From Terriglobales bacterium (GTDB lineage: Bacteria; Acidobacteriota; Terriglobia; Terriglobales; Acidobacteriaceae): a stretch of DNA of 34,506 bases. The stretch covers positions 1 through 34,506 of the forward strand of contig JASHSL010000597.1 in assembly GCA_030040855.1 (NCBI GenBank), given 5' to 3'. The position numbers and the translations under genes were made by a program. Below, in pieces: positions 4,154-30,393 of this stretch; within the stretch, counting starts at the first letter, position 1; each line of letters opens with the position of its first letter. The notes beneath the pieces were generated by a model, which was given only the letters and a program-made list of their open reading frames with translations, was not told the DNA's origin and did not search any database.

Positions 4154-5103
4154 TGAGTTTCTCCGGAAATTGGCTTCGGACATGATCTAATCCGTTGTTC
4201 TACTACCGCCCGGGAATCCCCCTTAGGGTTCCGAATCGCTTGGTTGCATTGCTGACTTGGAGGCAACTGTCGCAACTACCAGCACAACGCACACAGCAAG
4301 TGTACGCAAAAAATTCGCTTGGTCAATCCCAGAAGCTCGTACGCTAGTATTCGCTATCCATCGTATATCACAGTACAGTGCGGCATAAGCTTTGTATTCT
4401 GTGTCGTTGATTTTGATCGGGTCTGCCGCAAAGCGATCCAAAAGAGATCTGCTATGCTTTTTGATCACTTCAATTCAAATCTTCTCAAATTCTGAGCGAT
4501 CTTTTCACTCGTCGGTGTCGTCAAAGACCTGTACAGCTCAGACACAACCACTGTTCCCGTGGCACCGGCCACCAACACCGAAAGTGATCCTTTAACTCAT
4601 TTGCCCACCCTCCGATCCCCGAAACCAGCCACGCTGTTTCCCGAATACCGGCTCTGCCGATATTGCGCTGCGTTGCACTCAGAGACGGACCCCCTCGCCG
4701 GGACCCAAACACTGACACTGGTGTCTGGCTGGTCCTGGTGCGATCTGTGAAGCTTGTCGACATGCGCTTGCCGTAGGAGTGGATCGAATCCATGCTGAGA
4801 TTTGTTTCTCGCTGGCTCGCACTCCTCACGTCGGAAATTCAGCTCTGAGATTTGCAGGCTAGCTTCGTGGAGTCATACCCGGCCTTTTCGCACCTCGGAC
4901 TTCTCAACCTACCCGCACTCGATCGGCAGGCTCGAACCATCAAGCTCTGAGAGAAAATAGCAGTTTCCCTCTAATCGCTGTCTCCCTTAAACTAGGTCAG
5001 GTTGGCGGTCCAGCAGCTGGCCTGATGCACAACCATTGGGGTCCTTGGTGGCAACATCACTCCGCCAGCGATTCTCACTACTCATTGTCCCAAGCGGAGG
5101 CCC

Positions 5104-13600: not shown

Positions 13601-14172
13601 CCCGTGCGGGTCACGGCAAGGTTCGACTGGTCGGTGGTGATCACTCCCGCGGACTCGCCCTCTACGTTCACAGTTGTCGTTGGTGCGCCGATTTTCAGGC
13701 TGCCATCCACGCGTTTCGTCTCGCGCGCCTCGAGATCCAGATTGAGAAACTCCAGTTTCTGAAATCCTTCCGCTCGAATCGTGAGGTTGTATTTGCCGGC
13801 ATTCAGATTGAAGAACGAGTATTCACCGGCATTGTCTGTCACGACGTGACGTTCGACGCCCGTACCCTGGTTGACCAAGGTAACGCTCGCTCCCTTGACC
13901 ACAGCGCCCGAGGCATCGGAAATCGTCCCGATGACCGACCCAAATGTGGATTGAGCCAGCAGCATGCGACTGGAAATCGCCAGTCCGCCAAGCAGCAGAA
14001 CCAGGTAGAGGGAAAACGCGCGCCCCTTGCTCGTGGGGCGCAGTCGCGGAAAGCGCCAAGAAGCTGCTGTCCTGCCTCTTGCGAGGACGTCGGCGTTTCC
14101 ACTGGCCAAGACCAAACAGCCAGGCACAAGAAGGGACAAGAACCCCGATATCTCAGGAGCCGAGACGGACAT
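10609..14172 (-). CDS. TonB-dependent receptor/Oar-like outer-membrane protein with N-terminal carboxypeptidase-regulatory-like domain
   Basis: STFGSVIGTISDASGAVVKGASVTLVNQGTGVERHVVTDNAGEYSFFNLNAGKYNLTIRAEGFQ; TTTSRGGGNTFHGGAFLNHEDNSL; GGYLGGPIRHDKTFFFASYEGLR; FFAQDDWKAASRLTINAGLRYE; LQFGAEASNLFNHKNY. Confidence 0.95.
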   Translation of the reverse strand: MSVSAPEISGFLSLLVPGCLVLASGNADVLARGRTAASWRFPRLRPTSKGRAFSLYLVLLLGGLAISSRMLLAQSTFGSVIGTISDASGAVVKGASVTLVNQGTGVERHVVTDNAGEYSFFNLNAGKYNLTIRAEGFQKLEFLNLDLEARETKRVDGSLKIGAPTTTVNVEGESAGVITTDQSNLAVTRTGQELVDLPVAIYSRSSGSTSPISTLTTQAGVQTDTSGNLIIAGTTPGLLSVTLDGISGMNIEYAGPLDELFPSFNSISEMRVSQINNNAEFSGVSDITTTSRGGGNTFHGGAFLNHEDNSLVSGNPFALTKPKLVMNDFGGYLGGPIRHDKTFFFASYEGLRLPRETPIVTSVPSVAMRQGNLCSYLSGQGIAQVFQPNGTPIPCGSVPINPVSANFMKYLLPLPNTGAASSYINNFAENLATPIASDQGDLRIDENITPRQSVFGRLTYKDRSVTTAPNPYCPGFCETAGSPSTGAFSQPETDLGLAFAYNFVIRASLLNELRGGLSRYHLATTLDVNSQQILNEVGIVGIPNPSPYGAVPSVVFGNNFQQTGGANPSTQISQTIELADNVTWTKGKHTWKFGGDFRRLSDHDDNAFGSWRSGTYLFNGSSPVGATIGDQFTSFLLGYPDAVLLTLIKDDRMNGLGHSYGFFAQDDWKAASRLTINAGLRYELHPPLHDTGYNSGAFLPNYQATISGQSVHGAIVVPNQQALALTDPGFAGSIVPTPILTAQQAGIPSALRYTYTKDFGPRIGFAWRLFRDDKTVLRGGYGRFIMSPLGFNLVSGWATTSSYIPYYAQAYSGPNNTGSPILSFPSPFYTPLDYPEPGTASFYYAFPVHYIDPSVQQWNLTLERELGFNTGLRISYVGSHGGNLQDMVDLNQVAPNTVGYAIAGASRPFPIWGVIESVANDAKSNYNALNVVVHKRFNNGLQFDSSYVFTRDLSDAGGSNPTAIPTEPPQFVTNRFGLGLDYGNVIYDRRQRFVTTYLYELPIGRGKKFLSDSGGVLNSLVGGWEWGGVLTFESGPFLTPYQVTNDSAGTNIFATVGSDRADVVPGVSPYAPSGATLGGYPLFLNAAAFAIPGGIANHPIGRFGDAGVGSVVGPRTEIVSMSLIKAVSLKERARLQFGAEASNLFNHKNYEPPNMEVGSAGFGTITALQTAEGAGPRIVELTARISF

Positions 14173-14406
14173 CGAACGCCTCCCCTAGAGTCCTCCGATC
14201 CCGCGACGTCCCCAAGCGGAAGGAAGACTGCCAGACAGTGTATAAGGTGAAAGGATTCACCGGGTTCAGGCGAACTTTACCCCGCAATCGCGAGAACATA
14301 TATTTACTTCTCAAAGTATTTCAGTAGCGCTGGATACAAATCTGTCGAACCCGCACATTTTATATTCCGCCTCGGATTGGATCGGTGCCGGAGGCCTGGA
14401 GTTCAG

Positions 14407-16584
14407 TTGAAACCCATTCTGGTTCTGGTAGCCGTAACCGCCCTGATCACGGCGGGCCGCGCCCAAGACACGTCTTTTCCACCGGTGTGGGAGCAGATTC
14501 CCGGCCCTGACTGCGCGCCCGTTCCCCAGTGGAACGCTACGGCTAAACCCAAGACCTGCAGCCGCGCTGAAATCGCCGGCTGGCTCGAAGACATCCGCCA
14601 TTGGCGCACCGAACACCTGATTCGCATGGGTTACGACGGCAGCGAGTATGAGCGCCCGGACCTGAAGTGGACGCAATCCAGCTTTATTCAGCCTCAGATG
14701 ATGGTCCACGACCGGTATTTCTACGATCCGGTGGCACAACGTTACACCGTGGATCGTTACCTCGATGATCTTTTCAGCCGCTATGGTGGAATCGACAGCG
14801 TGCTCGTCTGGCACACCTATCCCAATCTAGGGATCGATAGTCGCAACCAGTACGATTTGTTCCGCGACTTACCCGGCGGAATCGCTGGCGTTCGGCAGAT
14901 GGTCGCAGACTTTCATCGCCGCGGGGTTCGCGTCTTCTTTCCGGTGATGGTATGGGATCAGGGAACTCACAACGAGGGGGTGTCCGACTTCGACGCCATC
15001 GCTCGAGAACTCGCCTCGGTCGATGCGGACGGAGTCAATGGTGACACTCAGGAAGGGATGCCGGCTGCCTTTCGCAAGGCGGCAGACCAGACGGGTCATC
15101 CGCTTGCCATGGAACCGGAGGCACCGCTCGCAGCCGACGAGATGCTCGCCTATGACAACCTTACCTGGGGATATTGGACGTACAGTTTTGTTCCCTCCGT
15201 CAGCCGCTATAAGTGGCTGGAGTCGCGTCACATGGTGAATATGTGCAATCGTTGGGCGCACGATCATCTCGATGATCTTCAGCATGCATTTTTCAATGGG
15301 GTGGGCTTCGAGAGCTGGGAGAACATCTGGGGAATCTGGAACCAGATCACTGCCCGCGACGCCGAGGCGCTGCGGCGAATTGCCACCATCGAGCGAGCGT
15401 ATAGCAGGCTCTTGGTGAGTCCAGAGTGGGAGCCTCACACCCCCACCGAGTTCTTTGGCGTGTTTGCCAGTAAGTTTCCAGGCAAGGATAGGACGCTTTG
15501 GACGGTGGTCAACCGGAATCATTACCCGGTTGCGGGACGTCAGTTGCTGGTGCCTTACCGGGCGGATGTTCGGTACTTCGATGTGTGGCGCGGCCGGGAG
15601 CTCTCTCCCCAACATGAGGGCGAGCAGGCGGCACTCGAGTTTGATGTGGAGGCGGACGGATATGGGGCGGTGCTCGAGACCTCGGCGCCGGGAGATGCTA
15701 CCCTCGCAACCCTCCTGACCACCATGCGAACGCTAAGCCAAACTCCGCTAAGCAGTTTTTCCCCTGACTGGAAGACCCTCCCCCAGCAGATGGTGCCGAC
15801 TGAACCGACGTCAACGAGCAGCCAGACCCCCGAAGGCATGGTGAAGATTCCGGAAGCTGATTTCAACTTTCGGGTGAACGGGATTGAGATCGAAGGCATG
15901 AACGACGAGGGAGTTGACGTTCAGTACCCCTGGGAACCCTCAGCTCGCCGCTATCACCAACACCGGATCCACGTCCGCTCTTTTTGGATCGATAAGTATC
16001 CAGTCACCAACGCCGAATTCAAGAGCTTTTTGGATGCGACCCACTACCGTCCGGGGGATGATCACAACTTTCTCAAGGATTGGAAGAGTGGAACCTATCC
16101 GGCGAATTGGGAGCAGAAGCCGGTGACCTGGGTGTCCCTGGACGATGCGCGAGCCTACGCCAAGTGGAGGGGCAAGCGTTTACCCCATGAGTGGGAGTGG
16201 CAGTATGCCGCCCAAGGGGATGATGAACGAACTTTCCCTTGGGGTAATGACTGGTCGGCCGAGCGAGTGCCGAAACCGGACACCGGTCGGGAGATGGCCC
16301 CAGCCGGTGAAGTCACCGCCCATCCCAACGGTGCAAGTCCGTTCGGGGTGATGGACTTGGTTGGCAACGTGTGGCAGTGGACCGACGAGTATATCGACCA
16401 GCATACCCGCGCCGCGGTCGTGCGCGGGGGAAGTCACTATCAGCCTCAAGGTTCACGTTGGTACTTCCCGCAGGCCTACAAGCTCTCCGAACATGGTAAG
16501 TATTTATTGATGGCCCCTAGCCTGGATCGCTCCGGAGCAATCGGCTTTCGATGCGTGATGGAGGCGGACCTGCAGAAGCGCTGA
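14407..16584 (+). CDS. Two-domain secreted protein: N-terminal glycosidase-like (TIM-barrel-like) domain fused to C-terminal FGE-sulfatase/SUMF1-fold domain
   Basis: TTG start at 14407 preceded by GGAG (the track uses TTG 14377). Signal LKPILVLVAVTALITAGRAQ; DLFSRYGGIDSVLVWHTYPNLGIDSRNQYDLFRDLPGG..MVADFHRRGVRVFFPVMVWDQG; C-terminus FWIDKYPVTNAEFKSFLDATHYRP..PVTWVSLDDARAYAKWRGKRLPHEWEWQYAAQG..FPWGNDW..GVMDLVGNVWQWTDEY..AAVVRGGSHY..GAIGFRCV. Confidence 0.88.
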   Translation: MKPILVLVAVTALITAGRAQDTSFPPVWEQIPGPDCAPVPQWNATAKPKTCSRAEIAGWLEDIRHWRTEHLIRMGYDGSEYERPDLKWTQSSFIQPQMMVHDRYFYDPVAQRYTVDRYLDDLFSRYGGIDSVLVWHTYPNLGIDSRNQYDLFRDLPGGIAGVRQMVADFHRRGVRVFFPVMVWDQGTHNEGVSDFDAIARELASVDADGVNGDTQEGMPAAFRKAADQTGHPLAMEPEAPLAADEMLAYDNLTWGYWTYSFVPSVSRYKWLESRHMVNMCNRWAHDHLDDLQHAFFNGVGFESWENIWGIWNQITARDAEALRRIATIERAYSRLLVSPEWEPHTPTEFFGVFASKFPGKDRTLWTVVNRNHYPVAGRQLLVPYRADVRYFDVWRGRELSPQHEGEQAALEFDVEADGYGAVLETSAPGDATLATLLTTMRTLSQTPLSSFSPDWKTLPQQMVPTEPTSTSSQTPEGMVKIPEADFNFRVNGIEIEGMNDEGVDVQYPWEPSARRYHQHRIHVRSFWIDKYPVTNAEFKSFLDATHYRPGDDHNFLKDWKSGTYPANWEQKPVTWVSLDDARAYAKWRGKRLPHEWEWQYAAQGDDERTFPWGNDWSAERVPKPDTGREMAPAGEVTAHPNGASPFGVMDLVGNVWQWTDEYIDQHTRAAVVRGGSHYQPQGSRWYFPQAYKLSEHGKYLLMAPSLDRSGAIGFRCVMEADLQKR

Positions 16585-16619
16585 GGCTAGACGGCCAAGC
16601 ATTCGTTGCCGCAAAGACC

Positions 16620-17372
16620 ATGGCTGCAGGAAGGGAAATCCGGCTGAACCGCATCTTCGCACGCGACGGTAGGACCGTCATCGCCGCCCTCGATCACGGG
16701 ATCGCGGGCATCGCCCCGCTCGAAGGACTGCAACGCCCGGAGTCTCTCCTTCCAGCGCTCATCGCGGCCGGAGTGGACGCAATCATCGTGGCCCCGGGGT
16801 TAGTACGCGGGTTTGCCGGCTTGTTCGGTAAGGCTGGACTCATCGTGCGAGTCGACTGCGGTCCGACTGCCCATACCGGACAGTGGTGCGAAGCCAGGCC
16901 GGCTTTGACCGCCGAGGACGCGGTACGCCTGGGAGCGGATGCCGTGATCGCCATGGGAATCGTCGGAACCGAGAACGAGGCTGCCAGTCTGCAATCGCTT
17001 GCCGCCCTGGCCGCAGAATGCGAGCGCTGGGGCATCGCTCTGGCAGCGGAAATGTTGCCCGGAGGTTTTGCCGCGAAGGAAGTAACTCCCGCCCAAGTCG
17101 CTTCGGCAGCGCGAATCGGTGCGGATCTGGGTGCTGACTTCGTCAAAGTCAGCTACAGCGGGAGTATTGATAGTTTTCGTGAGGTGGTCAGCAACTGCTA
17201 TCGACCGGTGGTGGTTCTGGGCGGATCAAAGCAACCCCCCAAGGCGCTTGTGTCCACGGCCCGCGACGTGGTGAAGGCTGGCGCCAAAGGGATGGCGGTG
17301 GGGCGGAATATCTGGCAGTCCGCGGACCCAGGCGGCATCGCGGCCGCCCTGGTGGAGGCGATTCATGGCTGA
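16620..17372 (+). CDS. Class I aldolase of the DeoC/FbaB/LacD (DhnA/LsrF-type) family
   Basis: In-frame ATG at 16620: MAAGREIRLNRIFARDGRTVIAALDHGIAGIAPLEGL; LGADAVIAMGIVGTENEAASLQSLAALAAECERWGIALAAEMLPGG; GADFVKVSYSGSIDSFREVV (Schiff-base Lys context); PVVVLGGSKQPPKALV; AGAKGMAVGRNIWQSADPGGIAAALVEAIHG. Confidence 0.88.
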   Translation: MAAGREIRLNRIFARDGRTVIAALDHGIAGIAPLEGLQRPESLLPALIAAGVDAIIVAPGLVRGFAGLFGKAGLIVRVDCGPTAHTGQWCEARPALTAEDAVRLGADAVIAMGIVGTENEAASLQSLAALAAECERWGIALAAEMLPGGFAAKEVTPAQVASAARIGADLGADFVKVSYSGSIDSFREVVSNCYRPVVVLGGSKQPPKALVSTARDVVKAGAKGMAVGRNIWQSADPGGIAAALVEAIHG

Positions 17373-18378
17373 GAGGTGGCGGCGCGTCGGCTTGGTTGTC
17401 AATCCCGCCGCCGGCAAGGGAGCCCATCCGACCGCAGCCGCGCAGGATGCTCTTCGAAGTCTTAGCGTGGAGGCGGCGCTGACTTGCCAAGCTGGGAACG
17501 CAGCTTTATCGGGATGGAGCGGATGGGTCAATGTGCACGCGGTGGACGCAATTGGACGAGCTCACACGCAGGACTTGGTCCGGTGGCTCTCTGAGCAGGA
17601 CGTGGATGCGGTGGTCGTGGTCGGCGGAGATGGTACGCTCGCCGATGCTGCCTTGGCATGTTGCCGAACACAGTGGCGAGTACCGATTATCGGCATCGGT
17701 ACAGGTTCGACCAACGTCGGGCGATTGATCACTTGCCACGCCGAGAAAGCCGCCAGTTTAGATCTGCGCGATCTCGAGACCTGGAACCCGGATGGTCTCG
17801 AGGCTCGTATTAACGGAGAGTTGGCCGGATTGGCATTCAACGACGTTGTCATCGGGAATACGGTGGTCGGCACGATCGATAACCAGCTTCGCGATTTGAA
17901 TGCTGCCAGACGCCTGCGCGGCCAGTTGCTTCGAGAAAGACCGCGTCGCGTTGGCGGGCCGAGGACGAGAGTGACCCGCGTCCGGGATGGAATCCAAACG
18001 CTGGTAGCCGAGGCAGAAAGCGTGGGTGCGGTAGTTGCGGGATTTGCTGAACCGGCCTTCTTCGGCAAGGCCATCACCGGGGGCATCTGTCTGGCTGCCC
18101 TGGCGCAGCTTCCGGCTGGCTGTCTGGTCTGCGATCTGCCTCTGGCGCAAATCGAGATCAGCGCCGCCTCCCTGTTGAATGCGGAGCCAATTGCGTCGCG
18201 GTACGTAACCCTTGCCGAAAACACGCACATCGTGGTGGAGAATGTGGGCAACGGCGCTGTGCTGTGTGTCGACGGGAACCCGCTGCGCCAATTAAGCGAG
18301 TCCGACCGTGTCGCCATCTCGATTCGCAGGGAGGCCGTCATCGGGGTGCGGTGGCACAGAAACTTGAGGGCGGCGTGA
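17365..18378 (+). CDS. ATP-NAD-kinase-like / diacylglycerol-kinase superfamily protein
   Basis: RVGLVVNPAAGKGAHPTAAA; VDAVVVVGGDGTLADAAL (GGDGT motif); VPIIGIGTGSTNVGRLI; ALINAEPI..NTHIVVENVGNGAVLCVDGNPLRQLSESDRVAISI. Overlaps the aldolase stop by 8 bp. Confidence 0.85.
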   Translation: MAERWRRVGLVVNPAAGKGAHPTAAAQDALRSLSVEAALTCQAGNAALSGWSGWVNVHAVDAIGRAHTQDLVRWLSEQDVDAVVVVGGDGTLADAALACCRTQWRVPIIGIGTGSTNVGRLITCHAEKAASLDLRDLETWNPDGLEARINGELAGLAFNDVVIGNTVVGTIDNQLRDLNAARRLRGQLLRERPRRVGGPRTRVTRVRDGIQTLVAEAESVGAVVAGFAEPAFFGKAITGGICLAALAQLPAGCLVCDLPLAQIEISAASLLNAEPIASRYVTLAENTHIVVENVGNGAVLCVDGNPLRQLSESDRVAISIRREAVIGVRWHRNLRAA

Positions 18379-19409
18379 AGGCTCTCAAGTATTACGGCCC
18401 GGGATCGATCCGCGTGGTGGACACTCCCGTTCCCTCGGTCAAGAATGGGGAGATCCTGGTGGCGGTCGTGGCCTGCGGAGTTTGCGCCACCGACGTCAAG
18501 ACCTTTCTCCGCGGCCATCCGAAAATTCTCCCCGGTTCCGGGCTGGGGCACGAAATCTCGGGTGTGATCGCGGAGGCGCCGGGCTCGGATCTTTGGAAGA
18601 AGGGGATGCGAGTCGTGGTCGCGCCTTATGTACCTTGCGGCTCCTGTTTCCAATGCTCGCAGGAGCGATACAGCCTGTGCAGCCACCTGTTCGATGAAAT
18701 CCTGGATCCTGGCGGTTTCAGCGAGTTGGTACGCGTTCCCCCCCGCCTGGCTGCGCAGGGCGTGCTTCCTTTACCCACGGCGGTGAATCCTCTCGCCGGC
18801 TGTTTTGGCGAGCCGGTGGCTTGTTGTCTCCACGCATTCTCGAGCATCGGAGTGGAGGCAGGCGATTCCCTCTTCATTATCGGGGATGGCGTCATGGGCT
18901 TGCTTCAGGCCGAGATTGGCAAGTTGCTGAGGGCCGATCCGGTCATCCTCAGCGGAATGACGAGCGAGCGTATGGCCCTAGCGTTCGGCGTTGCGGATGT
19001 GGTCATCGACGCTGCCAAAGAAGATGTTCTGGCGACGGTGCTTCGTGCGACCGGCGGCGAGGGCGCCGACAAGGTCATTGTTTCCGTCGCCGACATCGGC
19101 GCGGCCGGCATGGCCGTGGCTGCCGTGCGCAAGGGCGGCGCGATCAACCTGTTTGCCGGGATGCCGGCGGATGCCAAGCTTGCGCTCGATATGAATCGCA
19201 TTCATTATGACGAGATCCTTCTCACTGGGTCGTTCGGTTTCGCGCCGGAGGACTTCCATGCCGCCATAGATCTGATTTCCCGGGGAAAGCTGGATGTTAT
19301 GCGCTTGGTGACTTCTTCCGTTCCCCTTGCCGAGACGGCCAGGGCTCTTGAAAAGCTGACCCGCCAGGAGGGCGTGAAGACCATCGTTCTGTGCGGCGGA
19401 GACCGGTAG
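18375..19409 (+). CDS. Zinc-dependent medium-chain alcohol/polyol dehydrogenase
   Basis: GTG start overlapping the upstream stop (GTGA, 18375-18378): MKALKYYGPGSIRVVDTPVPSVKNGEILVAVVACGVCATDVKTFLRGHPKILPGSGLGHEISGVI; PYVPCGSCFQCSQERYSLCSH (structural Zn Cys cluster); VIGDGVMGLLQAE; LTGSFGF. Confidence 0.93.
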   Translation: MKALKYYGPGSIRVVDTPVPSVKNGEILVAVVACGVCATDVKTFLRGHPKILPGSGLGHEISGVIAEAPGSDLWKKGMRVVVAPYVPCGSCFQCSQERYSLCSHLFDEILDPGGFSELVRVPPRLAAQGVLPLPTAVNPLAGCFGEPVACCLHAFSSIGVEAGDSLFIIGDGVMGLLQAEIGKLLRADPVILSGMTSERMALAFGVADVVIDAAKEDVLATVLRATGGEGADKVIVSVADIGAAGMAVAAVRKGGAINLFAGMPADAKLALDMNRIHYDEILLTGSFGFAPEDFHAAIDLISRGKLDVMRLVTSSVPLAETARALEKLTRQEGVKTIVLCGGDR

Positions 19410-19412
19410 GAA

Positions 19413-20168
19413 ATGTTTTCCCGGCTCGAAAATTGGATCGATCTCCTCCCGCGGCTTCTCAGTTTTCACGCCATGTTTATGGCCGGTCTGGTGGTATCGG
19501 TTCCCATGACCTTCATCCTGCTGGCCGAGGTGTTCGACTATCAGGTTCGACTCTTCCCTCCGGGGATGGTCAGAATGGAGCGGCGCTGGAATGCGAAAGC
19601 GGTAACCATGATGGCCATGACGGCGGCGCTTTCGGTGCTTTTGCAAGCGGTGAGCGCAATTCTTGTGTTGATTCCGGGTTTCCTCACGTTTCGTGCCGAT
19701 GCCCTTGTCCGTTTTCCCTTCGGAGCGATCTTCGGAATGCCCGCAGTCTGGGGAATCACCGTAGCCAATCTTCTCGGAGACGCATTGACCGGGGCGCTGA
19801 CGCCCGGTTCTATCGCCGGCGCCATCATTACCTGGTGGATGGCCTACCTGTTTTATCGTCTCTACCGGGGACCCGCAGATTACTGCATGATGAAACCTAC
19901 CGCATGGGTCAAGTATTACGCTGTGGTGCTGCTTTGGTGCGCGCTCGGTTCCCTGTACTTGTGTACCAACTTCATTTACTTGCGGTTGCTGCCCGCCCAG
20001 ATTGTCTGGACTGCCGTCTTTCCCGCAGTTAGCCTGACCACCTTCTTCGGCGGACTGCTCGGTCCATTGGTAGCGCGCGTCGTTGGTCCGGCGGCAGAGC
20101 GTTACGGCCTGTCTCGTGACGAAATGGGGTACGAACATGAAAAGCGAGCGGGCAAAGTTTGGCATTGA
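19413..20168 (+). CDS. Putative ECF transporter substrate-specific (S) component
   Basis: Polytopic membrane protein: WNAKAVTMMAMTAALSVLLQAVSAILVLIPGFLTFRADALVRFPFGAIFGMPAVWGITVANLLGDALTGALTPGSIAGAIITWWMAYLFYRLYRG. Sits 6 bp upstream of the ECF ATPase gene, which is followed by the T component. Confidence 0.75.
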   Translation: MFSRLENWIDLLPRLLSFHAMFMAGLVVSVPMTFILLAEVFDYQVRLFPPGMVRMERRWNAKAVTMMAMTAALSVLLQAVSAILVLIPGFLTFRADALVRFPFGAIFGMPAVWGITVANLLGDALTGALTPGSIAGAIITWWMAYLFYRLYRGPADYCMMKPTAWVKYYAVVLLWCALGSLYLCTNFIYLRLLPAQIVWTAVFPAVSLTTFFGGLLGPLVARVVGPAAERYGLSRDEMGYEHEKRAGKVWH

Positions 20169-20174
20169 CACGCA

Positions 20175-21878
20175 ATGTCTTCGCTTATTCAGATTCGCGG
20201 GCTGACGTATTCGTACCGGAGGCAGGAGGAGCGTCCTGCTTTGCAGGGGGTCGATCTCGATATCGAGCCCGGGGAAGTCGTTGCCATCGCCGGACGGGCG
20301 GGCTCCGGTAAGTCGACTCTGTGCTATGCGCTCAACGGGCTGGTTCCCCAGAGCTTCGGAGGCCGCATCGAAGGCGAGGTGCGCGTCTGCGGTCTCGACA
20401 CGCGTTTCACCCCGGTGCCCGAGTTGGCCCGGCATGTCGGCATCGTGTTGCAGAGTGCCGAATCGCAACTGGTGGGATTGAGCGTCGAAGAGGATGTCGC
20501 CTTCGGCCTCGAAAATGTCGGCCTGCCTAGGGAAGAAGTGAACGCGCGAGTGTTTTCCGCCCTGCGTACGGTCAACCTCGACGAGCTGGCCGATCGTTCG
20601 CCTTGGAATCTTTCTGGTGGTCAGAAGCAACGGCTGGCGATTGCCGCCGCCATCGCTCTCCAGCCGGAGATCTTGGTGCTGGATAATCCGACTGCCGAAC
20701 TCGATCCGGTCGGCAAACACGAGATCATCGCGACGATCGCGCGCCTGAGCTCGGAGCATGGCCTCACGATCGTGATCGTCGATCAAGAATTAGAGGAAGT
20801 GCTCCCGCATGCCTCTCGACTGATTCTGATGGATCACGGTCGAATCGTCCGTGAGGGCAAGCCGGCGGAGGTGATTGACCAGGCGCAAGAGCTGGTGCAG
20901 TTAGGTCTGAAAGTTCCGGATGTGGCTCACCTTGCCTGGCAGTTACGCGATCGGGGCCGTTGGAGCGGTCCTCTTCCACTTTCGATTGACGACGCCGTCC
21001 AGGGATTGCAGCCACTGGCAAACCTCCCTCTGCCGACCGTCGCACCGGTGGAACGCTGCGGCCAATACGGCGAAACTCTGATTGAACTTGAGAATGTTTC
21101 CTTCGCCTATCCCGATGGCACAGCCGTACTCGACAACATCAGTCTGACCATCCGACGAGGCGAATTCCTAACCCTGATGGGCCCGAACGGCGCGGGCAAG
21201 ACGACTCTAGCCAAGCATCTGAATGGCCTGCTCCTACCCACCTCGGGCAAAGTTCTTGTGCATGGGGTTGACACTCGGTCCTCCTCCGTTGCGAAGCTCG
21301 CCCAGACGGTGGGATATGTCTTTCAAAATCCTGACCATCAAATCTTTTCACGAACCACGGCGGAAGAACTGGCCTTCGGTCCACGCAATTTGGGTTGGCC
21401 AAAGCAGAAGATCACTGACGCCGTTAGTCTCGCGCTCACCCGCATCGCCGGCCAGGACCGCGGCCATGACGATCCTTTCTTTATGGGTCTGGCCGAGCGC
21501 AAGCTGGTTGCGATTGCTTCCGTGCTCATCATGGCACCGGAGGTGCTAGTGCTCGACGAACCGGCTACCGGGGCCGATCACGAAGCGGCCATGCGCATCA
21601 TGCATCATCTTTCTGACCTGCATGGTTCCGGTCTCACGGTCGTGATCGTGACCCACGACGTTTCGATTGCCGCGAACTATGCGGATCGCATCGTCGGTTT
21701 ACGATCCGGCAGGATCGTGCTCGACGGAACACCCCGCGAAACCTTTCAGCGATCGGAGGAGCTGCGATCCTGCTTGCTCACACCTCCCCCAGTGGCCGGG
21801 GTTGCGCAAAAACTGGGGGAAGATTTCTCCTCCCTCTATCGCATAGACGAGATGGTACGAATTTTCTCGAGAGCATAG
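20175..21878 (+). CDS. ECF transporter ATPase, two fused ABC domains (CbiO/EcfA-EcfA' type)
   Basis: Two Walker A motifs (AGRAGSGKSTL and GPNGAGKTTLAKHLNGLL), LSGGQKQRLAIAAAIALQPEILVLDNPTAELDP, a Q-loop in each half (VLQSAESQLVGLSVEEDVAFGLEN; VFQNPDHQIFSRTTAEELAFGPRN), APEVLVLDEPATGAD. Confidence 0.97.
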   Translation: MSSLIQIRGLTYSYRRQEERPALQGVDLDIEPGEVVAIAGRAGSGKSTLCYALNGLVPQSFGGRIEGEVRVCGLDTRFTPVPELARHVGIVLQSAESQLVGLSVEEDVAFGLENVGLPREEVNARVFSALRTVNLDELADRSPWNLSGGQKQRLAIAAAIALQPEILVLDNPTAELDPVGKHEIIATIARLSSEHGLTIVIVDQELEEVLPHASRLILMDHGRIVREGKPAEVIDQAQELVQLGLKVPDVAHLAWQLRDRGRWSGPLPLSIDDAVQGLQPLANLPLPTVAPVERCGQYGETLIELENVSFAYPDGTAVLDNISLTIRRGEFLTLMGPNGAGKTTLAKHLNGLLLPTSGKVLVHGVDTRSSSVAKLAQTVGYVFQNPDHQIFSRTTAEELAFGPRNLGWPKQKITDAVSLALTRIAGQDRGHDDPFFMGLAERKLVAIASVLIMAPEVLVLDEPATGADHEAAMRIMHHLSDLHGSGLTVVIVTHDVSIAANYADRIVGLRSGRIVLDGTPRETFQRSEELRSCLLTPPPVAGVAQKLGEDFSSLYRIDEMVRIFSRA

Positions 21879-22700
21879 ATGTCCACACTTCCGGTCGGTT
21901 CTCGGATTGCTTCTCCGCGTTGCTCAAGGCCCATTGACCCACGGGTTAAGATTCTTTACCTGCTATGGGTTTTCCTCATCGTTGGCGTCGTTGCCCACCC
22001 CTTTCTGCAATGTCTCATCTTTCTGGTGACGGTCGCTGTCGTGTATGCCAGCCGGCTTTCCCTATGGGACCTGCTCAAGGCAGGAAGATTTGGCATGTTC
22101 ATGGCCGGTGCATCCTGGCTTCTCTGGATCATCTTTCTGCGCCGCCAGGGACAGGTGCTGTTTGCTCTCGGGCGCTGGCATTTTACCGAGCCTGGCGTCT
22201 ACAACGGACTATCGGTCGCGGTGCGAATCGCGGCTATCTTGCTGGCGTTTCTTGTGGTGTTCAAGACCACGTCGAACCGGCAGATTATGACCGGCCTGTA
22301 TCGTTTGCGGGTCTCCGTCCCGTTCGCTATGGTGGTGGGAATTACCTTGCGGTTGATTCCGCAACTGCAAGCCGAGCACGCCATCATTCAAGAAGCGCAG
22401 CGGGCGCGCGCCGTGGACTTCGACCGGGAAGGGCCGCTGGCCCGGCTTCGCAAGCAGTTGTCGTGTATCATTCCCCTGGCGCTAAGGGCTCTGAAAATCA
22501 CGAGCGACTTGAGTCTGGCGATGGAGGCCCGTGCATTTGATCCTTACGCCCGTCGCACCTTCTCCCCGTCCTTGGAATTTGCCACGACGGACATCGTCCT
22601 GCTCACCGTGATGGGGATCACCCTGGCTTTGAGTGTAGTGGCGCGGGTGATGGGTTATGGCGGTTTGCCGGAACCTTGGATCGCGAAGAGCGTGCGGTAA
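21879..22700 (+). CDS. ECF transporter transmembrane (T) component, EcfT/CbiQ family
   Basis: IDPRVKILYLLWVFLIVGVVAHPF; TSNRQIMTGLYRLRVSVPFAMVVGITLRLIPQLQAEHAIIQEAQRARAVDF..LIPLALRALKITSDLSLAMEARAF: EcfT Ala-Arg-Gly-type coupling-helix regions (QRARAVDF, MEARAFDP). Confidence 0.92.
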   Translation: MSTLPVGSRIASPRCSRPIDPRVKILYLLWVFLIVGVVAHPFLQCLIFLVTVAVVYASRLSLWDLLKAGRFGMFMAGASWLLWIIFLRRQGQVLFALGRWHFTEPGVYNGLSVAVRIAAILLAFLVVFKTTSNRQIMTGLYRLRVSVPFAMVVGITLRLIPQLQAEHAIIQEAQRARAVDFDREGPLARLRKQLSCIIPLALRALKITSDLSLAMEARAFDPYARRTFSPSLEFATTDIVLLTVMGITLALSVVARVMGYGGLPEPWIAKSVR

Positions 22701-22702
22701 GC

Positions 22703-24043
22703 CTACGACGGGGCAGCCTCGGTAAAGCTAGGAAGTATGCGTCCCTTGCATTCCCCGAAGCCCACCCTGGCTTTCCCGGATCCTTCACACCAGCCTCGCA
22801 GGGTAACTTCGTCTCCGTCTCGCAGGAAACCGAGCTCCTCGCCCGTGGGAAGCCGGATCTTTTGTTCTCCCTTCCAGGTTAACTCCAGCAGGCAGCCGCG
22901 GGACTCGGGCGCTCTTCCCGATACGGTCCCGCTCGCCAAGAGGTCGCCCGGCCGGAGATTGCAGCCGTTGCTGGCGTGGTGCGTGAGCAGTTGGGCGAGA
23001 GTCCAATACATCTCGCGAAACGAACCCTGGCTCAGCCGATAGGGAGAGAGCTTTTGCTCGCGCATCTTCGGAGTCGTAATCGATGCCTCCACGGTCAGAT
23101 CAATGCCGCCCCATCGGCGGTCGATTTCATGATCCAAATACGGCAGTGGAGCCGGGTCTTCCGGGAGGCGCGGGAACGCGGGGATGCGGAACGGCAGCAG
23201 GGCTTCGAGCGTCACCACCCAAGGCGAGACCGTCGTGGCAAAACTCTTGGAAAGGAAGGGCCCGAGCGGCTGATACTCCCAGCTTTGGATGTCTCGCGCC
23301 GACCAATCGTTTACCAGAGACAACCCGAATATCTTTTCCTCTGCTTGTGCAATCGGTACCGGGGAACCCAATCCATTTCCCACGGCGACGTAGAGGCCCA
23401 CTTCCAATTCGTAATCCAGTCTTCGGGATGGAGCAAACCCCGGGGTCGTGGCGCCCTGAGCCATGATCTGTCCGTGAGGACGGCGAATGCCGGTCCCGCT
23501 GATAACGATCGAGGAGGCCCGGCCGTGATAGCCGATCGGAATCCACTTATAATTCGGCAGCAGAGCATGGTTCGGCCGCAACATGCTGCCCACGTTCGTA
23601 GCGTGGAACACCGAAGCATAAAAATCCGTGTAGTCCCCGATTTTGACCGGGAGCTCTAGGTCTAGGTCAAACCGATCCAGCACTGCCTTCTGAAGCAAAT
23701 CCCGAACCCTTGCTTCCGCATCCGCGTGCAGCAGCCTGAATATTTGCTTCCTGAGCGCCAACCTTTGCCTATGATCGAGCGACATTAACTCGTTCAGCGA
23801 ATCCGCCCGACACGCCTGGATGGTGGAGGGGCTGACCGTAGTCAGCAGGCCATGCGTCGCGCACTGGTCGAGATCGAGGACGGAATCCCCGATCGCAACC
23901 GCGATGTGCCCTCGGCCCCCGGCGCGCTGCCGAAACACTCCAAAGGGAAGATTCTGAATGGGAAAGTCGGTGGTTCCATGGTTGGCGGATTCCACCCAGG
24001 AAAGGGCGCTTGGATCGTGAGTTTCGTCCGGCGCGGGAATCAT
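22703..24043 (-). CDS. fahA: Fumarylacetoacetase
   Basis: SWVESANHGTTDFPIQNLPFGVF; YTDFYASVFHATNVGSMLRPNHALLPNYKWIPIGYHGRASSIVISGTGIRRPHGQ; DYELEVGLYVAVGN; FGLSLVNDWSARDIQSWEYQPLGPFLSKSFATTVSPWVVTLEAL. ATG at 24043 overlaps the upstream stop (ATGA). Confidence 0.97.
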   Translation of the reverse strand: MIPAPDETHDPSALSWVESANHGTTDFPIQNLPFGVFRQRAGGRGHIAVAIGDSVLDLDQCATHGLLTTVSPSTIQACRADSLNELMSLDHRQRLALRKQIFRLLHADAEARVRDLLQKAVLDRFDLDLELPVKIGDYTDFYASVFHATNVGSMLRPNHALLPNYKWIPIGYHGRASSIVISGTGIRRPHGQIMAQGATTPGFAPSRRLDYELEVGLYVAVGNGLGSPVPIAQAEEKIFGLSLVNDWSARDIQSWEYQPLGPFLSKSFATTVSPWVVTLEALLPFRIPAFPRLPEDPAPLPYLDHEIDRRWGGIDLTVEASITTPKMREQKLSPYRLSQGSFREMYWTLAQLLTHHASNGCNLRPGDLLASGTVSGRAPESRGCLLELTWKGEQKIRLPTGEELGFLRDGDEVTLRGWCEGSGKARVGFGECKGRILPSFTEAAPS

Positions 24044-24942
24044 AACCATCGAAGAGCCCGAAGATCTTCGATCGGTTCGTCCAAGGAGCACGAACCGAAG
24101 GCGATGGCGCATGCTGCGCGCATCCTTCGAAGTTGATCGGTCGGGATGACCACGCCCATGATCTGTGCTCCCCGATCGTCGAAGTGCAGCTGATCGGCTC
24201 GGTCCGAGTCCAGTATAGCGGCGAGGGTTTCCTTGTCCCCTTGATAGGCGGCGGCAAGAAAAAGATTGAGGAATCCGTGCATCCTAGCGACCGGCGCGTT
24301 CGGTTCGTAGCTAAGCGGCGCCAGACGCCGCAAAGGATGATGCAGACCGGCTGTGGCTTTGAAGGCCACGCCGGCACTGGCGAATCCCAAGATCGCGCTG
24401 GCCACGGCATCCGTCGAGGGAATGGCCTCCGGATTCAATCCCCCGGTTCGAATCTTGGCTCGGGCGCCGGATTTCTGGATTGCCGAAATCAGTGCGACAG
24501 GACACGGTAAGGGCACTTCCAGATAAACTCGCAGGCCCTGGGGTGCCTTCTCGGTCACGCGGGCAACCTGTTCGCCGCTCTCCGCTCTGGTCTCGACCGA
24601 GTCGATGATGGCATCCTCGCGATCGTTGAATCTGCGAATGGCGGCGAAATCGCCCTCCGCATCCGACCCCAGGAGACAGCTCACTCTCCACCGCGCAGTC
24701 GTCGGAGTGGCTGCGCGTAGGCGCGCAAATTCCTCGAGGCGACTCGCCGGCAGAACGAACCGTCCAAGAACCCAACCGAGCTCGCCTGCCAAATAGCCTG
24801 CGTATTTCGCGATCGCGTCCGGCATGCTCAGAGTAGCTGGGGGAAAGAGCCCGGCGTAGTCGATCAAACTTAAAAGCACAGCCCGAAGCGAGGCGCAGGG
24901 AATCGCATTCCGGGTTGTCCGAACAGCGTGCTCTTGCGACAT
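24040..24942 (-). CDS. Uncharacterised conserved-looking 300-aa protein in the homogentisate operon
   Basis: MSQEHAVRTTRNAIPCASLRAVLLSLIDYAGLFPPATLSMPDAIAKYAGYLAGELGWVLGRFVLPASRLEEFARL...AKIRTGGLNPEAIPSTDAVASAILGFASAGVAFKATAGLHHPLRR. Between hmgA and fahA, same strand, ATGA overlap with fahA. Confidence 0.85.
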   Translation of the reverse strand: MSQEHAVRTTRNAIPCASLRAVLLSLIDYAGLFPPATLSMPDAIAKYAGYLAGELGWVLGRFVLPASRLEEFARLRAATPTTARWRVSCLLGSDAEGDFAAIRRFNDREDAIIDSVETRAESGEQVARVTEKAPQGLRVYLEVPLPCPVALISAIQKSGARAKIRTGGLNPEAIPSTDAVASAILGFASAGVAFKATAGLHHPLRRLAPLSYEPNAPVARMHGFLNLFLAAAYQGDKETLAAILDSDRADQLHFDDRGAQIMGVVIPTDQLRRMRAACAIAFGSCSLDEPIEDLRALRWL

Positions 24943-24961: not shown

Positions 24962-26287
24962 TCAGGGCTTCTGCGGTCTGAAATTCTTTTTTAGGCCCTG
25001 CCAACACTCGTAGTACTCGTGTTGCAGTTGCGCGGTTCGCATGGCAAATTCCGTGGGACGCGCTACAAAACGAGTTTCGAACATAAAGGCCAGAGTATCG
25101 CTGAGCCGATGTGGCTTCAGCTCCGCCGCGGCTGCCTTCTCGTAGGTTTCTGCGTCCGGACCGTGCCCGCTCATGCAGTTATGCAAGCTGGCACCACCCG
25201 GCAGGAAGCCTTCTGCCTTCGCGTCATACTGGCCGTAGATCAATCCCATGAACTCGCTCATGAAATTGCGGTGAAACCAAGGCGGCCGGAAGGTATGTTC
25301 TGCCACCAGCCAGCGCGGCGGGAAGATTGCGAAATCGCAGTTGGCCGTACCCAGGATTTCAGACGGGGAGGTGAGTACGGTGTAGATGGATGGATCAGGG
25401 TGATCAAAGGAAACCGTATTGATGCAGTTAAACCGAGCCAGATCATATTTGTAGGGCGTGAAATTGCCGTGCCATGCCACCACATCCAAAGGCGAATGAT
25501 CGTATCTCGCTTCCCACAAGTTGCCGCAAAACTTAGCCACCACGCGAAAGTCTCCTTCGCGATCCTCGAACGCAGCCCAAGGAGCCTCGAAATCTCTGGG
25601 GTTGGCCAGACCATTCGCCCCAATGGGACCGAGTTCGGGGAGCCGGAACATCGGGCCATAATTTTCGCAAACGTAACCCCTGGCTTCAGGACCCGCCAAC
25701 GCAACACGGAATTTCAAGCCCCGTGGAATCAGACAGATCTCGCCCGGCTCGAGTCCAATTTTTCCCAATTCCGTATGCAGGAGTAGGCTGCCCTGCTGGG
25801 GAACGATCAGCAACTCGCCGTCTGCGTCATAGAAAAAGCGCTTTGTCATGGAGCGATTGGCGACGAAGAGATGAATGGCTACGCCCGAATGCGACTCGCT
25901 GTTCCCGTTGCCGGCCAAAGTAATGAGACCGGTGACGAAGTCCGTGGCCTCTCGGGGAATCGGAATCGGATCCCAGCGGAGTTGATTGGGCGAGGCGGGC
26001 GTTTCCTGAAACGGGCTGCTGCGTATCAGGTTTCGATCGATGGGCGTGAAAGGTTCGTGCATCACCGAGGGACGAATTCGGTAAAGCCACGATCGCCGAT
26101 TGGTGTGGCGGGGCGCCGTAAAAGGTGAACCGCTGATCTGTTCCGCGTACAGCCCAAAGGGCACTCGTTGAGGGGAATTCTGCCCCATCGGCAGTGCTCC
26201 CTTGATTGCCTCCGTGGCAAACTCATTGCCGAAGCCACGGTTGTAGTCGAGATTCTCAGCATCAACGCCGGGTTTTGCGCCTGCCAT
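24962..26287 (-). CDS. hmgA: Homogentisate 1,2-dioxygenase
   Basis: [164 protein letters not shown]. Start at 26287 ([11 protein letters not shown]). Confidence 0.98.
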
Positions 26288-26324
26288 GTTCGACGAAAAC
26301 CTCCCATGGTTCCTGCGATCATGC

Positions 26325-27281
26325 TCAGCCTTGCAGGGCTTCCCACATCTCCCGGTCCCGTTGAGCCGTCCAGATTCGCGGGTGTTTGATGCCACTCGCT
26401 TCATCATAGGCCCGAGCAACGTCAAAAGGCAGGCAATGCTCGTAGATGAACATCCTGCCAAATTTCGGATCCATCTTGGATCGCGTGTACTCGAACGTTT
26501 CTTTCAAGGTTCGCTTCGCCGCGACCGAGTCCCGGGCGCAAGCAAACAGAGTCGTCACGAAATCCTGGGTATAGTCGATCCCGCGCCTGACTTGCTCCCG
26601 GGTTTCGAGCACCGGTCCCCGCCCCGGCACGAGCTTCTCCGGCTTGAGCGAGCGTAACTCCTGCAAGGTGGATGGCCACTCCTCGAGCTGAGCGTCTCCT
26701 GCGTAGGCTGCGGCCTGGTACTCCACCAAATCGCCGGAAAACAAGATGCCGTGTTGCGGCAGGAACACCACGGTGTCACCCCGGGTATGACCGGGGCCCA
26801 AATGCAGGATTCTGACTTCCAGTTTCCCCAGGTGCAGGGTAATTTCGTCAGAGAAAACCAGATTCGGCCAGGTGAGTCCGGAGATAGACTCAACCGCCTG
26901 GAAAAGCCTAGGGAAGCGTTCCATCTCCGACTTCATGTCCTCAGCGCCGCGCTCGACAATCAGATCGTACGTGCCGCGACTCGCGATAATGTGGGTACAG
27001 CCTTCACCGGCATACGCCGATGCGCCCAGTACACGCACGGCGTGGTAGTGAGACAACACGACATGCCGGATGGGTTTATCCGTGACTTGCCGAATCCTGG
27101 CAATCAACTCCCGTGCCATGACCGGTGTGGCCGTGGTATCGACGACGAGAACGCTGTCATCGCCAAGAACCACGCCGGAATTGGGATCCCCCTCCGCAGT
27201 GTAGGCGTAGGCATTCGCCGATAATTGGGTAAAGCTGATCTTCTTCGGACTTAAGTCTCCTCGGGAGGCAAACGGGGTCAT
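26325..27281 (-). CDS. MBL-fold metallo-hydrolase
   Basis: ATG at 27281: [113 protein letters not shown]. The 5' end overlaps the flavin reductase stop (ATGA, 27278-27281). Confidence 0.9.
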
Positions 27282-27790
27282 GGTCGGTGGCTCTCCAAAA
27301 ACGCTCTCCCTTGATGCTCTTGCTCCAAGTGGAGGTATCGCCCCTCGTGATAGAGGAGCGGGCGGGCACATTCTTTGGGGCCCACCATGTCCACCACTCT
27401 GCCCAGAATGATGCGATGATCACCGCCGGGATAGGTCGCTTCCAGATGGCAGCGGAATACGGCGTTTGACCCGGCCAGCCAGACGAATCCTTTTCCGCGA
27501 AGGCAGTCGAACTTGACTTCCCCGCTGCGTGTGCTCGAGAAATGTCGCGCTACATCCTCCTGGTGCGCGGCCAAAATATTCACAGAAAATCGTCCGGAGC
27601 GCAGGAACGATTCGGCGGATTGGCTTTGATTGTGCGCACAGAACAGAAGCAGAAGCGGATCCAGACTGGCCGAGGTGAGGGAATTCACGGTCAGTCCAAT
27701 CACTTTGCCTGCGTCCTCCCCCAGGACTACGGCCACACCGGTCGTGAACCGGCCAAAGAGACGTCGGTACAGCAGCGCCTGGTCGGTCAT
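27278..27790 (-). CDS. Flavin reductase-like (FMN-binding split barrel), HpaC/HsaB-type reductase
   Basis: MTDQALLYRRLFGRFTTGVAVVLGEDAGKVIGLTVNSLTSASLDPLLLLFCAHNQSQSAESFLRSGRFSVNILAAHQEDVARHFSS..GGDHRIILGRVVDM. ATG at 27790. Confidence 0.93.
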   Translation of the reverse strand: MTDQALLYRRLFGRFTTGVAVVLGEDAGKVIGLTVNSLTSASLDPLLLLFCAHNQSQSAESFLRSGRFSVNILAAHQEDVARHFSSTRSGEVKFDCLRGKGFVWLAGSNAVFRCHLEATYPGGDHRIILGRVVDMVGPKECARPLLYHEGRYLHLEQEHQGRAFLESHRP

Positions 27791-27860
27791 CTCTGCGAGG
27801 TCTCCAAGAGCACCCCCCCACAAACGATGGAAGATTAATGCTCGACGGAGAGGCACGGTC

Positions 27861-27876
27861 TGTATCGGAGTATACA
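27861..27876. promoter_or_regulatory. Candidate Crp/Fnr-family operator TGTAT-cggagt-ATACA upstream of the flavin reductase operon
   Basis: Perfect 5-bp inverted repeat with 6-bp spacer, 71-86 bp upstream of ATG 27790 and downstream of the regulator gene. Shares GTATC-N5-ATACA with the copy at 28630-28645. Confidence 0.5.
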
Positions 27877-27910
27877 TCGCAGAAGACGGCCTCCGCAGCA
27901 GCGCAAGCGG

Positions 27911-28585
27911 TCATTCCATGGGCGATGTCTTCACCAGGATGAGGCCATCTACGATATCGATCTGGTTGGCTTCGCGCAGCGTCCGCAAGGCGCGGGTGAC
28001 GGTTACGCGCGAGGTGCCGGTCATAGCTCCGATCTGCTCGTGCGTCAGCCGTGTGATCAGGAGTTTTCCGCCGGCATGATCAATGGCAAACATCTCCTGC
28101 AATCGGTGAAACAAGTCCATGATCCGACCCTCCGGCTCCCGCGAGGCAAGATGTTCCAGACGCACCGCCAACACCCGCTGCTTCAAACTGGTCACGCGGA
28201 GCAGTGCCGAGGCAAACTCCGGATGCTGGACGAACACCTTTTCCATGCGCGCGGCATCGAATTCAATCGTCTCGCTCTCCTCGACCGCGAGCGCCCGCGA
28301 AAATCGAGGCAGGCGATCAAACGCAGCACCTTCCCCACAGATGGTCTCCGGCCCCATATACTCGAGTACGACTTCGACGCCGTCGACGCGTACGATCGAG
28401 ACCTGCACCAGCCCGGAAATCACAAAATAGAACTTGGTCGAGGTGGTTCCCTGCTCGTAAATTACCTGATTCTTGCGAAATCGACGAGGCTGACCCGAAC
28501 TTGCATGGCCCATGATCTGACGGGCGAGTTCGGGATCGATTCGCCACGTCCCCAACATCTTTCTCGCTTTCGTCCGTTTCTGCAC
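27911..28585 (-). CDS. Crp/Fnr-family transcriptional regulator
   Basis: RRFRKNQVIYEQGTTSTKFYFVISGLVQVSIVRVDGVEVVLEYMGPETICGEGAAFDRLPR (cNMP-binding fold); LLITRLTHEQIGAMTGTSRVTVTRALRTLREANQIDIVDGLILVK (winged HTH). Alternative start at 28558. Confidence 0.95.
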   Translation of the reverse strand: MQKRTKARKMLGTWRIDPELARQIMGHASSGQPRRFRKNQVIYEQGTTSTKFYFVISGLVQVSIVRVDGVEVVLEYMGPETICGEGAAFDRLPRFSRALAVEESETIEFDAARMEKVFVQHPEFASALLRVTSLKQRVLAVRLEHLASREPEGRIMDLFHRLQEMFAIDHAGGKLLITRLTHEQIGAMTGTSRVTVTRALRTLREANQIDIVDGLILVKTSPME

Positions 28586-28629
28586 GGTTCCCCCGGCGGC
28601 CCCTGATCGTGCTGCTCAGATTAGCAGGC

Positions 28630-28645
28630 CGTATCTGGCGATACA
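28630..28645. promoter_or_regulatory. Candidate Crp/Fnr-family operator cGTATctggcgATACa between the regulator and the monooxygenase genes
   Basis: Inverted repeat GTATC-tggc-GATAC in the divergent intergenic region; matches the 27861-27876 site in GTATC-N5-ATACA. Confidence 0.5.
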
Positions 28646-28736
28646 AAACTGCGTACCCCACTCGGTCTAGAGTGCCTTAAGCTACAGTCCCGAAAATGCC
28701 CCCCGACACTTTTTGCCAAGAGAACGGATAGGAAAC

Positions 28737-29954
28737 ATGACGCTGGTCGATGCCAACTTCGAGCGCCGTGCGGGCCAATCGAATGCGGTGGCGCAAAAGG
28801 CACGAGCTTTACGCGGTTGGCTCGAGAGCAAAGCGGAGGAGATCGACGCTGCCAAGCAGATTCCCAAGGAGGTGATGGAGCGTCTGGCCGACGCGGATCT
28901 CTGGCGCATGACCCAGCCGCCGCGCTTCGGCGGGCTGGGCTGCACCCCGCGCGATGCCTGGGAGGCGGTTTTCGAAATCGCCAAGGGTTGCGGTTCGTGT
29001 GCCTGGATTGTCGGCCTCAACAGCGCCAACATCTTGATGTTGGGCAAGTTCTCCGACCAGGCTCAGCGCGACGTCTTCCTGTGCGGCAAGCCCCCCATTG
29101 TTACCATGCTTACCGGCGGAGTGGGTTCCAATCTCACGGCGCACCGCGTCTCAGGGGGCGTGCTGCTGTCCGGCCACTGGCGTTACGCCTCCGGCATCGA
29201 CGTTGCCTCGTGGGCTGGACTGCTGGTGTCGATCCCCAATGCCAACGGCGGCGAACCTGAATCGCACGTGGTGCTAGTACCCCAAGAGGCATTCTCGATT
29301 GACCATTCCAGTTGGAATGTGCTCGGCATGCGCGGCACCGGGAGCAAGGACATTGCTTTAGCGCCGACATTTATTCCAGAACATCGCTGGCTCAGCTGGA
29401 GCCAGCTCCAGCGGGGAGAAAAGCATCCCACGTGCCAGAACCATGAGCTCATTTATGATTGTCCGCTGAACTCCGTCTTTGCCATGTCGGTTTTGGCGCC
29501 CATGCTGGGGGTCGCCTCCGCCGTCGCGGAGGAGTTTCGTGACCTGGTGAAAACGCGAATTAACTCCGGAACCCAGCAGCGACAGCGAGACGACAAGGTG
29601 GCGCAGATCGATGTCGCTTCCGGAGAAGCTACCATGGCGATCCTGCGGCAGAGTCTACTCGACGACGCCGACCTGATGCTCGAAATCACTCAGAGCGGGC
29701 GCTCCCTCACGCCGGAAGAGCGGGGAGCGATTCGAATGCGACTCGCGATCGCAGCCCGGCTGGCGCTGGCAGCGGCGCAGAAGATGTTCTCGGGGCTGGG
29801 TGGAAGTCTGTTGCCGACCGGCTCCCGCGCCGAACGTCTGTTCCGCGACTTGCATGCCATGAGTTCGCATTTCTTGCTCCAGCCGGATGCGATCGGTGAG
29901 GCCTACGGACGGATTTTACTGGGACTCGACCTGCCTCCGGGCGCACGCCTGTGA
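28737..29954 (+). CDS. Group-D flavin-dependent monooxygenase oxygenase component (acyl-CoA dehydrogenase fold, HsaA/HpaH-like)
   Basis: ATG at 28737; ARALRGWLESKAEEIDAAKQIPKEVMERLADADLWRMTQPPRFGGLGCTPRDAWEAVFEIAKGCGSCAWIVGLNS; SGHWRYASGIDVASWAGLLVSI; SWNVLGMRGTGSKDIALAPTFIPEHRW; LFRDLHAMSSHFLLQPDAIGEAYGRILLGLD. Confidence 0.9.
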   Translation: MTLVDANFERRAGQSNAVAQKARALRGWLESKAEEIDAAKQIPKEVMERLADADLWRMTQPPRFGGLGCTPRDAWEAVFEIAKGCGSCAWIVGLNSANILMLGKFSDQAQRDVFLCGKPPIVTMLTGGVGSNLTAHRVSGGVLLSGHWRYASGIDVASWAGLLVSIPNANGGEPESHVVLVPQEAFSIDHSSWNVLGMRGTGSKDIALAPTFIPEHRWLSWSQLQRGEKHPTCQNHELIYDCPLNSVFAMSVLAPMLGVASAVAEEFRDLVKTRINSGTQQRQRDDKVAQIDVASGEATMAILRQSLLDDADLMLEITQSGRSLTPEERGAIRMRLAIAARLALAAAQKMFSGLGGSLLPTGSRAERLFRDLHAMSSHFLLQPDAIGEAYGRILLGLDLPPGARL

Positions 29955-29976: not shown

Positions 29977-30393
29977 ATGAAAAAGAAAGAAGCAATGAAT
30001 CCGTCGAGCCGCATCTTTGCCACCAAGGACGGCCCCACAATCTTCGAAAAATTTGGTTACTCAGCCGCGGTGCGGGCTGGCGATTTGGTTTATGTGGCGG
30101 GGCAGATCGGCCTGAATCCAGACGGCTCCCTGCCAACGGATGACGAAGCCCAAATCGTGAATGCATTTGACCGGCTCAAGATCGTTCTCGAAGCTGCGGG
30201 TTGCTCGCTCGAGGACGTCGTAGAATTAGTCAGCTACCACGTGGGGCTGCAGAAACATCTGGCGCGCTTTGTCGAGATCAAGAAGCGTTACATCCCCGCC
30301 CCGTACCCTACCTGGACCATCCTAGAAATTGCAGGACTGGCGCGGCCTGGATTGGTGATCGAGATCAAAGCGGTCGCTTACTCACCTCGCTAG
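29977..30393 (+). CDS. RidA/YjgF/UK114-family protein
   Basis: YSAAVRAGDLVYVAGQIGLNPDGSLPTDDEAQIVNAFDRLKIVLEAAGCSLEDVVELVSYHVGLQKHLARFVEIKKRYIPAPYPTWTILEIAGLARPGLVIEIKAVAYSPR; AAGGAG-like site upstream. Confidence 0.95.
   Translation: MKKKEAMNPSSRIFATKDGPTIFEKFGYSAAVRAGDLVYVAGQIGLNPDGSLPTDDEAQIVNAFDRLKIVLEAAGCSLEDVVELVSYHVGLQKHLARFVEIKKRYIPAPYPTWTILEIAGLARPGLVIEIKAVAYSPR

Follow-up and report, generated by a model that had tools for sequence, protein, structure and literature searches.

A Crp/Fnr-type regulator with an NtcA-like recognition helix and its putative operators at three promoters of a Terriglobales bacterium

The window, that is, the whole stretch of 34,506 nucleotides of Terriglobales DNA that was analysed, carries a Crp/Fnr-type regulator gene (27911 to 28585, minus strand) flanked by two sets of genes. 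On one side, a minus-strand run begins with an HsaB/HpaC-like flavin reductase (27278 to 27793) and continues with an MBL-fold hydrolase (26325 to 27284), homogentisate 1,2-dioxygenase (hmgA, 24962 to 26290, above the TIGR01015 cut-off), an uncharacterised gene with no Pfam family (24040 to 24942), and fumarylacetoacetase (fahA, 22703 to 24112, above the TIGR01266 cut-off). On the other side, the plus strand encodes the HsaA-like oxygenase component of a flavin-dependent monooxygenase (28737 to 29954) and a Rid-family protein (29977 to 30393). The oxygenase and reductase halves, encoded on opposite arms, would probably assemble into one two-component enzyme. This gene context had been described correctly in the original prediction except for the gene between hmgA and fahA, which was omitted. 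Of 199 Acidobacteriota genomes, 34 (the window's own counted) have relatives of that gene, which adjoin fahA in 17 of the 19 loci read; the gene product may supply the missing maleylacetoacetate isomerase step or have another role in the homogentisate pathway. Further along the window, a plus-strand operon (14407 to 19409) encodes a GH-like/FGE protein, a DhnA/DeoC-type aldolase, a DAGK/NAD-kinase-like protein, and a zinc dehydrogenase, and divergent from it lies a gene for an outer-membrane beta-barrel protein (OMP_b-brl_4, 10609 to 14172, minus strand). Between the GH-FGE operon and fahA are ECF-type transporter genes (19413 to 22700, plus strand), comprising a QueT-like protein, a fused double CbiO-like ATPase, and CbiQ.

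The MBL-fold hydrolase shares 71% identity with a Burkholderia protein, and in Roseomonas a relative occurs together with hmgA-fahA-maiA and an FAD monooxygenase; these relatives suggest a mobile homogentisate module. With the monooxygenase as anchor, no match at E<=1e-60 was obtained in 300 relatives, and at the level of the phylum only matches of 27-31% were obtained. On proteobacterial plasmids, the relatives of the Rid and MBL proteins have no regulator nearby, except on an Achromobacter plasmid (L042, 5582-6591), where a decayed relative of the regulator (38%, with an in-frame stop) adjoins a Rid gene (53% to the window's); this pairing hints at an older link between regulator and Rid.

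The regulator starts at GTG 28585 or ATG 28558 (its N-terminus was compared with that of the closest ortholog) and belongs to the Crp/Fnr superfamily, having a cNMP_binding domain (PF00027, 66 bits, cut-off 27.5) followed by HTH_Crp_2 (PF13545, 39.2 bits, cut-off 27). Its whole-protein scores against the NtcA model TIGR03697 (55.3 bits, cut-off 244.95) and the E. coli CRP equivalog PRK11753 (61.1 bits, cut-off 266) are far under the curated cut-offs. The codons of the recognition helix were located at 27992 to 28009 (minus strand) by alignment to PDB entries 8h3v, 3la2, and 2xgx. The six residues RVTVTR are identical to those of NtcA, whereas CRP has RETVGR; the helix reads GTSRVTVTRALRTLRE in the regulator and GSTRVTVTRLLGDLRE in NtcA. 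Base contacts in CRP are made by Arg180, Glu181, and Arg185 (PMC12531629), and the regulator has Arg, Val, and Arg at these positions, so that Glu181 alone is altered, to Val as in NtcA. RVTVTR was found in none of the 20 acidobacterial Crp/Fnr proteins closest to the regulator in their HTH (most have RETVTR or RETVSR), and GTA-N8-TAC is absent upstream of 19 of them. The genome encodes one other HTH_Crp_2 protein above the cut-off, and its helix differs.

Two dyads flank the regulator gene. Site 1, TGTATCggagTATACA (27861-27876), is operator-like and lies in the gap that separates the regulator from the flavin reductase operon; site 2, CGTATCtggcGATACA (28630-28645), lies in the divergent gap between the regulator and the monooxygenase. 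Both had been predicted with correct coordinates and letters, under the formula GTATC-N5-ATACA, which proved loose: the dyads do match, but the perfect 5+5 arms are TGTAT-N6-ATACA at site 1 and GTATC-N4-GATAC at site 2. Compared with TGTATC-N4-GATACA, each agrees at 11 of 12 positions, and both fit GTA-N8-TAC. The half-site had also been called non-canonical, which is true with respect to CRP and FNR but not with respect to NtcA, whose operator is GTA-N8-TAC; judged by its letters, the half-site agrees with the NtcA-type recognition helix of the regulator. Perfect 5+5 dyads of these kinds number 56 and 50 in the window, or about 1 per 650 bp per spacing, so each site is unremarkable by itself. 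The interest of the pair is its mutual resemblance, which is moderately beyond chance (p about 0.002-0.01). With the N4 spacing fixed, 1 of 500 dinucleotide shuffles attained the pair's joint half-site score of 22/24, as did 2 of 200 shuffles with spacings of 0-10 free and 1 of 500 pairs of real window segments, and the literature-defined pattern GTA-N8-TAC was matched in both gaps with a joint p of about 1-2e-4. Further dyads in the site 2 gap (28612-28627 and 28659-28674) have no counterpart in the site 1 gap. Another GTA-N8-TAC match, GTATATCACAGTAC (4363-4376), lies outside the listed ORFs between OmpA-family and carbonic anhydrase genes and has no TAN3T at the expected spacing.

The NtcA operator is centred at about -41.5 and accompanied by a TAN3T -10 box (PMC3898017), and at cyanobacterial CRP-type sites this box lies about 22 bp downstream (PMC2633013). 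Candidate -10 boxes of the TAN3T form were found 24 bp past the GTA-N8-TAC of site 1 (TAATCT, 27832 to 27837, minus strand, facing the flavin reductase operon) and 23 bp past that of site 2 (TAGAGT, 28668 to 28673, plus strand, facing the monooxygenase). Each is on the strand of the gene that it faces and is absent from the opposite strand at that spacing. The boxes are weak, and the promoter scan listed none. The centres of sites 1 and 2 would be at about -43 and -42, respectively, and the distance from the 16-bp site to TAN3T is 22-23 bp here and at a third site described below, which fits class II activation at predicted starts; sites 1 and 2 with their downstream TAN3T thus have the predicted architecture of a class II activator. 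A possible promoter of the regulator itself, TTGTAT-N17-TAATCT (28618 to 28646, minus strand), was recognised by eye and is under the promoter-scan threshold. Site 2 overlaps it, covering its possible -35 and spacer, and an operator downstream of the -35 is a known repression geometry (PMC3898017).

The third site, AGTAGCGCTGGATACA (14323 to 14338), lies in the divergent gap between the outer-membrane protein gene and the GH-FGE operon, with a -10 box for the operon, TATATT (14361 to 14366, plus strand), 23 bp past its GTA-N8-TAC. The composite GTA-N8-TAC-N22-24-TAN3T was searched for throughout the window and occurs 3 times, each time in an intergenic promoter region, compared with 0.03 expected, a figure that is somewhat flattering because the spacing range was fixed after sites 1 and 2 had been seen. 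The count was never above 1 in 300 shuffles. Site 3 suggests that the putative targets of the regulator extend past aromatic breakdown to the neighbouring sugar-type gene cluster.

A genome-wide motif scan was among the checks proposed with the original prediction. With at most one mismatch to TGTATC-N4-GATACA, 4 places were found in the 5.1 Mb genome, sites 1 and 2 among them; with at most two mismatches, there were 68 matches versus 65 for a reversed control. A wide regulon was rejected because the motif has no genome-wide excess over the control. In the genome of the relative described below, none of the matches with at most one mismatch adjoins the regulator or homologs of its targets.

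The closest ortholog of the regulator (87% identity) was found in the MAG bog_202 (L018), of the same family. It was the sole close one: searches of 200 relatives and of 249 family genomes yielded no other, and viral contigs yielded none. In L018 the ortholog adjoins the same operon (ADH, kinase, aldolase, LacI, and FGE), and an outer-membrane gene, 65% identical to that of the window, is in the same divergent place. The promoter between them retains AGTA(A/G)C(T/G)CTGGATACA and the -10 box TTTTATATT with the same spacing. Between the window and L018, 19 of 21 positions are identical in the site 3 block and 9 of 9 in the -10 box, compared with 6 of 19 in the spacer, which has diverged, and 9 of 35 upstream; the 19/21 block was matched neither in 200 shuffles (maximum 17) nor in 29 other FGE promoters (maximum 16). 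When 31 FGE promoters were read, GTA-N8-TAC was present in 2 of 2 from regulator-carrying genomes and in 1 of 29 others, the regulator search having covered some but not all of these 29 genomes. The exception, L100, whose genome lacks a close regulator ortholog, has AGTATCTCCAGATACA upstream of FGE; this dyad differs from the consensus at one position and has no -10 at the expected distance. Another relative, G038, has a -10 region in common with L018 and a LacI that is 68.6% identical; it has no site at the FGE promoter, and its regulator matches are distant (at most 30%).

Conservation, for which two genomes carry the regulator, does not reach the other sites. Orthologs of an autoregulated gene would be expected to keep the operator upstream, and in L018, where this was examined, no GTA-N8-TAC site precedes the ortholog; an insertion-element-like remnant lies upstream of it. 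The L018 hmgA-fahA operon also has no site. The monooxygenase, Rid, and flavin reductase are absent from the neighbourhood of the ortholog, so the arm sites could not be conserved there. Phylogenetic footprinting, likewise proposed as a check, favoured an operator at site 3 but not at the regulator or hmgA-fahA, so that the case for autoregulation and for control of the aromatic arms comes from the window's genome alone.

The palindromes are, in our reading, quite probably operators of the regulator encoded between them, a predicted NtcA-type, class II activator of three transcripts, and one local regulator likely serves all three promoters. The original prediction of a single Crp/Fnr regulator for both arms is thus upheld by the matching sites, the NtcA-type helix, and the promoter architecture that the arms have in common. 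Autoregulation, which it also held to be probable, is plausible by the geometry of site 2 but finds no counterpart at the 87% ortholog. Its label of an aromatic-catabolism regulon is too narrow, because the sole site common to both regulator-carrying genomes is at the OMP/GH-FGE promoter and the hmgA-fahA operon of the relative has none. The same observations could mean that the OMP/GH-FGE promoter is the only real target and that sites 1 and 2 resemble operators by chance. Of the three sites, site 3 is the only one kept along with the regulator; in the relative, neither the aromatic arm nor the promoter of the regulator has a site; and the significance of the site 1/2 pair is modest when all spacings are free. 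We consider this reading unlikely, since each of the two gaps also fits the composite, defined independently, facing the gene, and in a relative without the monooxygenase, Rid, and flavin reductase neighbours the sites had nowhere to persist.

Short dyads are bound by many families, and the sites might instead belong to another regulator, for example of LacI, GntR, or MarR type, encoded elsewhere, with the placement around a Crp/Fnr gene incidental. The FGE operon of the relative includes a LacI gene, and L100 has a similar dyad but no close regulator ortholog; both would agree with this, but the half-site fits the recognition helix of the regulator, the site co-occurs with the regulator in two genomes, the window has no LacI match, and G038 combines a similar LacI and the same -10 region with no site; the chances of this explanation are accordingly slim. 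That all three sites are chance dyads with no regulatory meaning is highly improbable, for although each 5+5 dyad is singly common and a genome-wide excess is absent, the composite far exceeds its expected number and the site 3 footprint is conserved.

For a local activator of three promoters, a mechanism of a well-known type can be proposed. The regulator dimer would bind GTA-N8-TAC (TGTATC-N4-GATACA-like) through its NtcA-type recognition helix and, placed about 42 bp upstream of the start, would activate transcription in the class II manner. Site 2 would turn on the monooxygenase-rid transcript, site 1 the flavin reductase-MBL-hmgA-fahA transcript, and site 3 the GH-FGE operon and perhaps the divergent outer-membrane protein gene as well. 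Because the oxygenase and reductase are on opposite arms, a shared activator would keep the two halves of the enzyme together. Binding at site 2, over the possible promoter of the regulator, may in addition cause autorepression. More speculatively, and with the balance of our judgement against it, an acidobacterial regulator of NtcA specificity but unrelated physiology might have served the OMP/GH-FGE-aldolase locus first, the monooxygenase and homogentisate pathway being recruited later via two new operators; if so, glycan-type uptake and aromatic degradation would be coupled through a single signal other than cAMP. The conservation of one site and not of the other two makes a case for following the gain of promoters by this regulon. 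The mechanism is ordinary and leaves that of Crp/Fnr proteins as it was known; the addition is the regulator with its conserved third site, and with it an operator, a regulator, and a set of targets in Acidobacteriota that can be put to the test.

Among known systems, the cyanobacterial NtcA, which has 2-oxoglutarate as its effector, is alike in its helix RVTVTR, its GTA/TAC half-site with N8, a site at about -42 from the inferred start, and TAN3T, and predicted operators of this type with a TAN3T -10 box are present in three window promoters. The regulator differs from NtcA in being acidobacterial, with an overall sequence far under the NtcA cut-off (55 of 245 bits), and in having local targets among aromatic and GH/FGE genes rather than a global regulon of nitrogen genes. 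E. coli CRP has the same domain order, two of the three base-contacting residues (Arg180 and Arg185), and class II geometry, but the regulator is far under the CRP equivalog cut-off (61 of 266 bits), and the site is TGTAT-N6-ATACA compared with TGTGA-N6-TCACA. The change of Glu181 to Val at one base-contacting residue accompanies this TGTGA-to-TGTA shift, here outside cyanobacteria. CprK, although distant in sequence, is a Crp/Fnr regulator that o-chlorophenol ligands activate (PMC2610375). As a member of this superfamily that responds to an aromatic compound and governs its breakdown, CprK provides a precedent by analogy for an aromatic ligand as a possible effector of the regulator described here.
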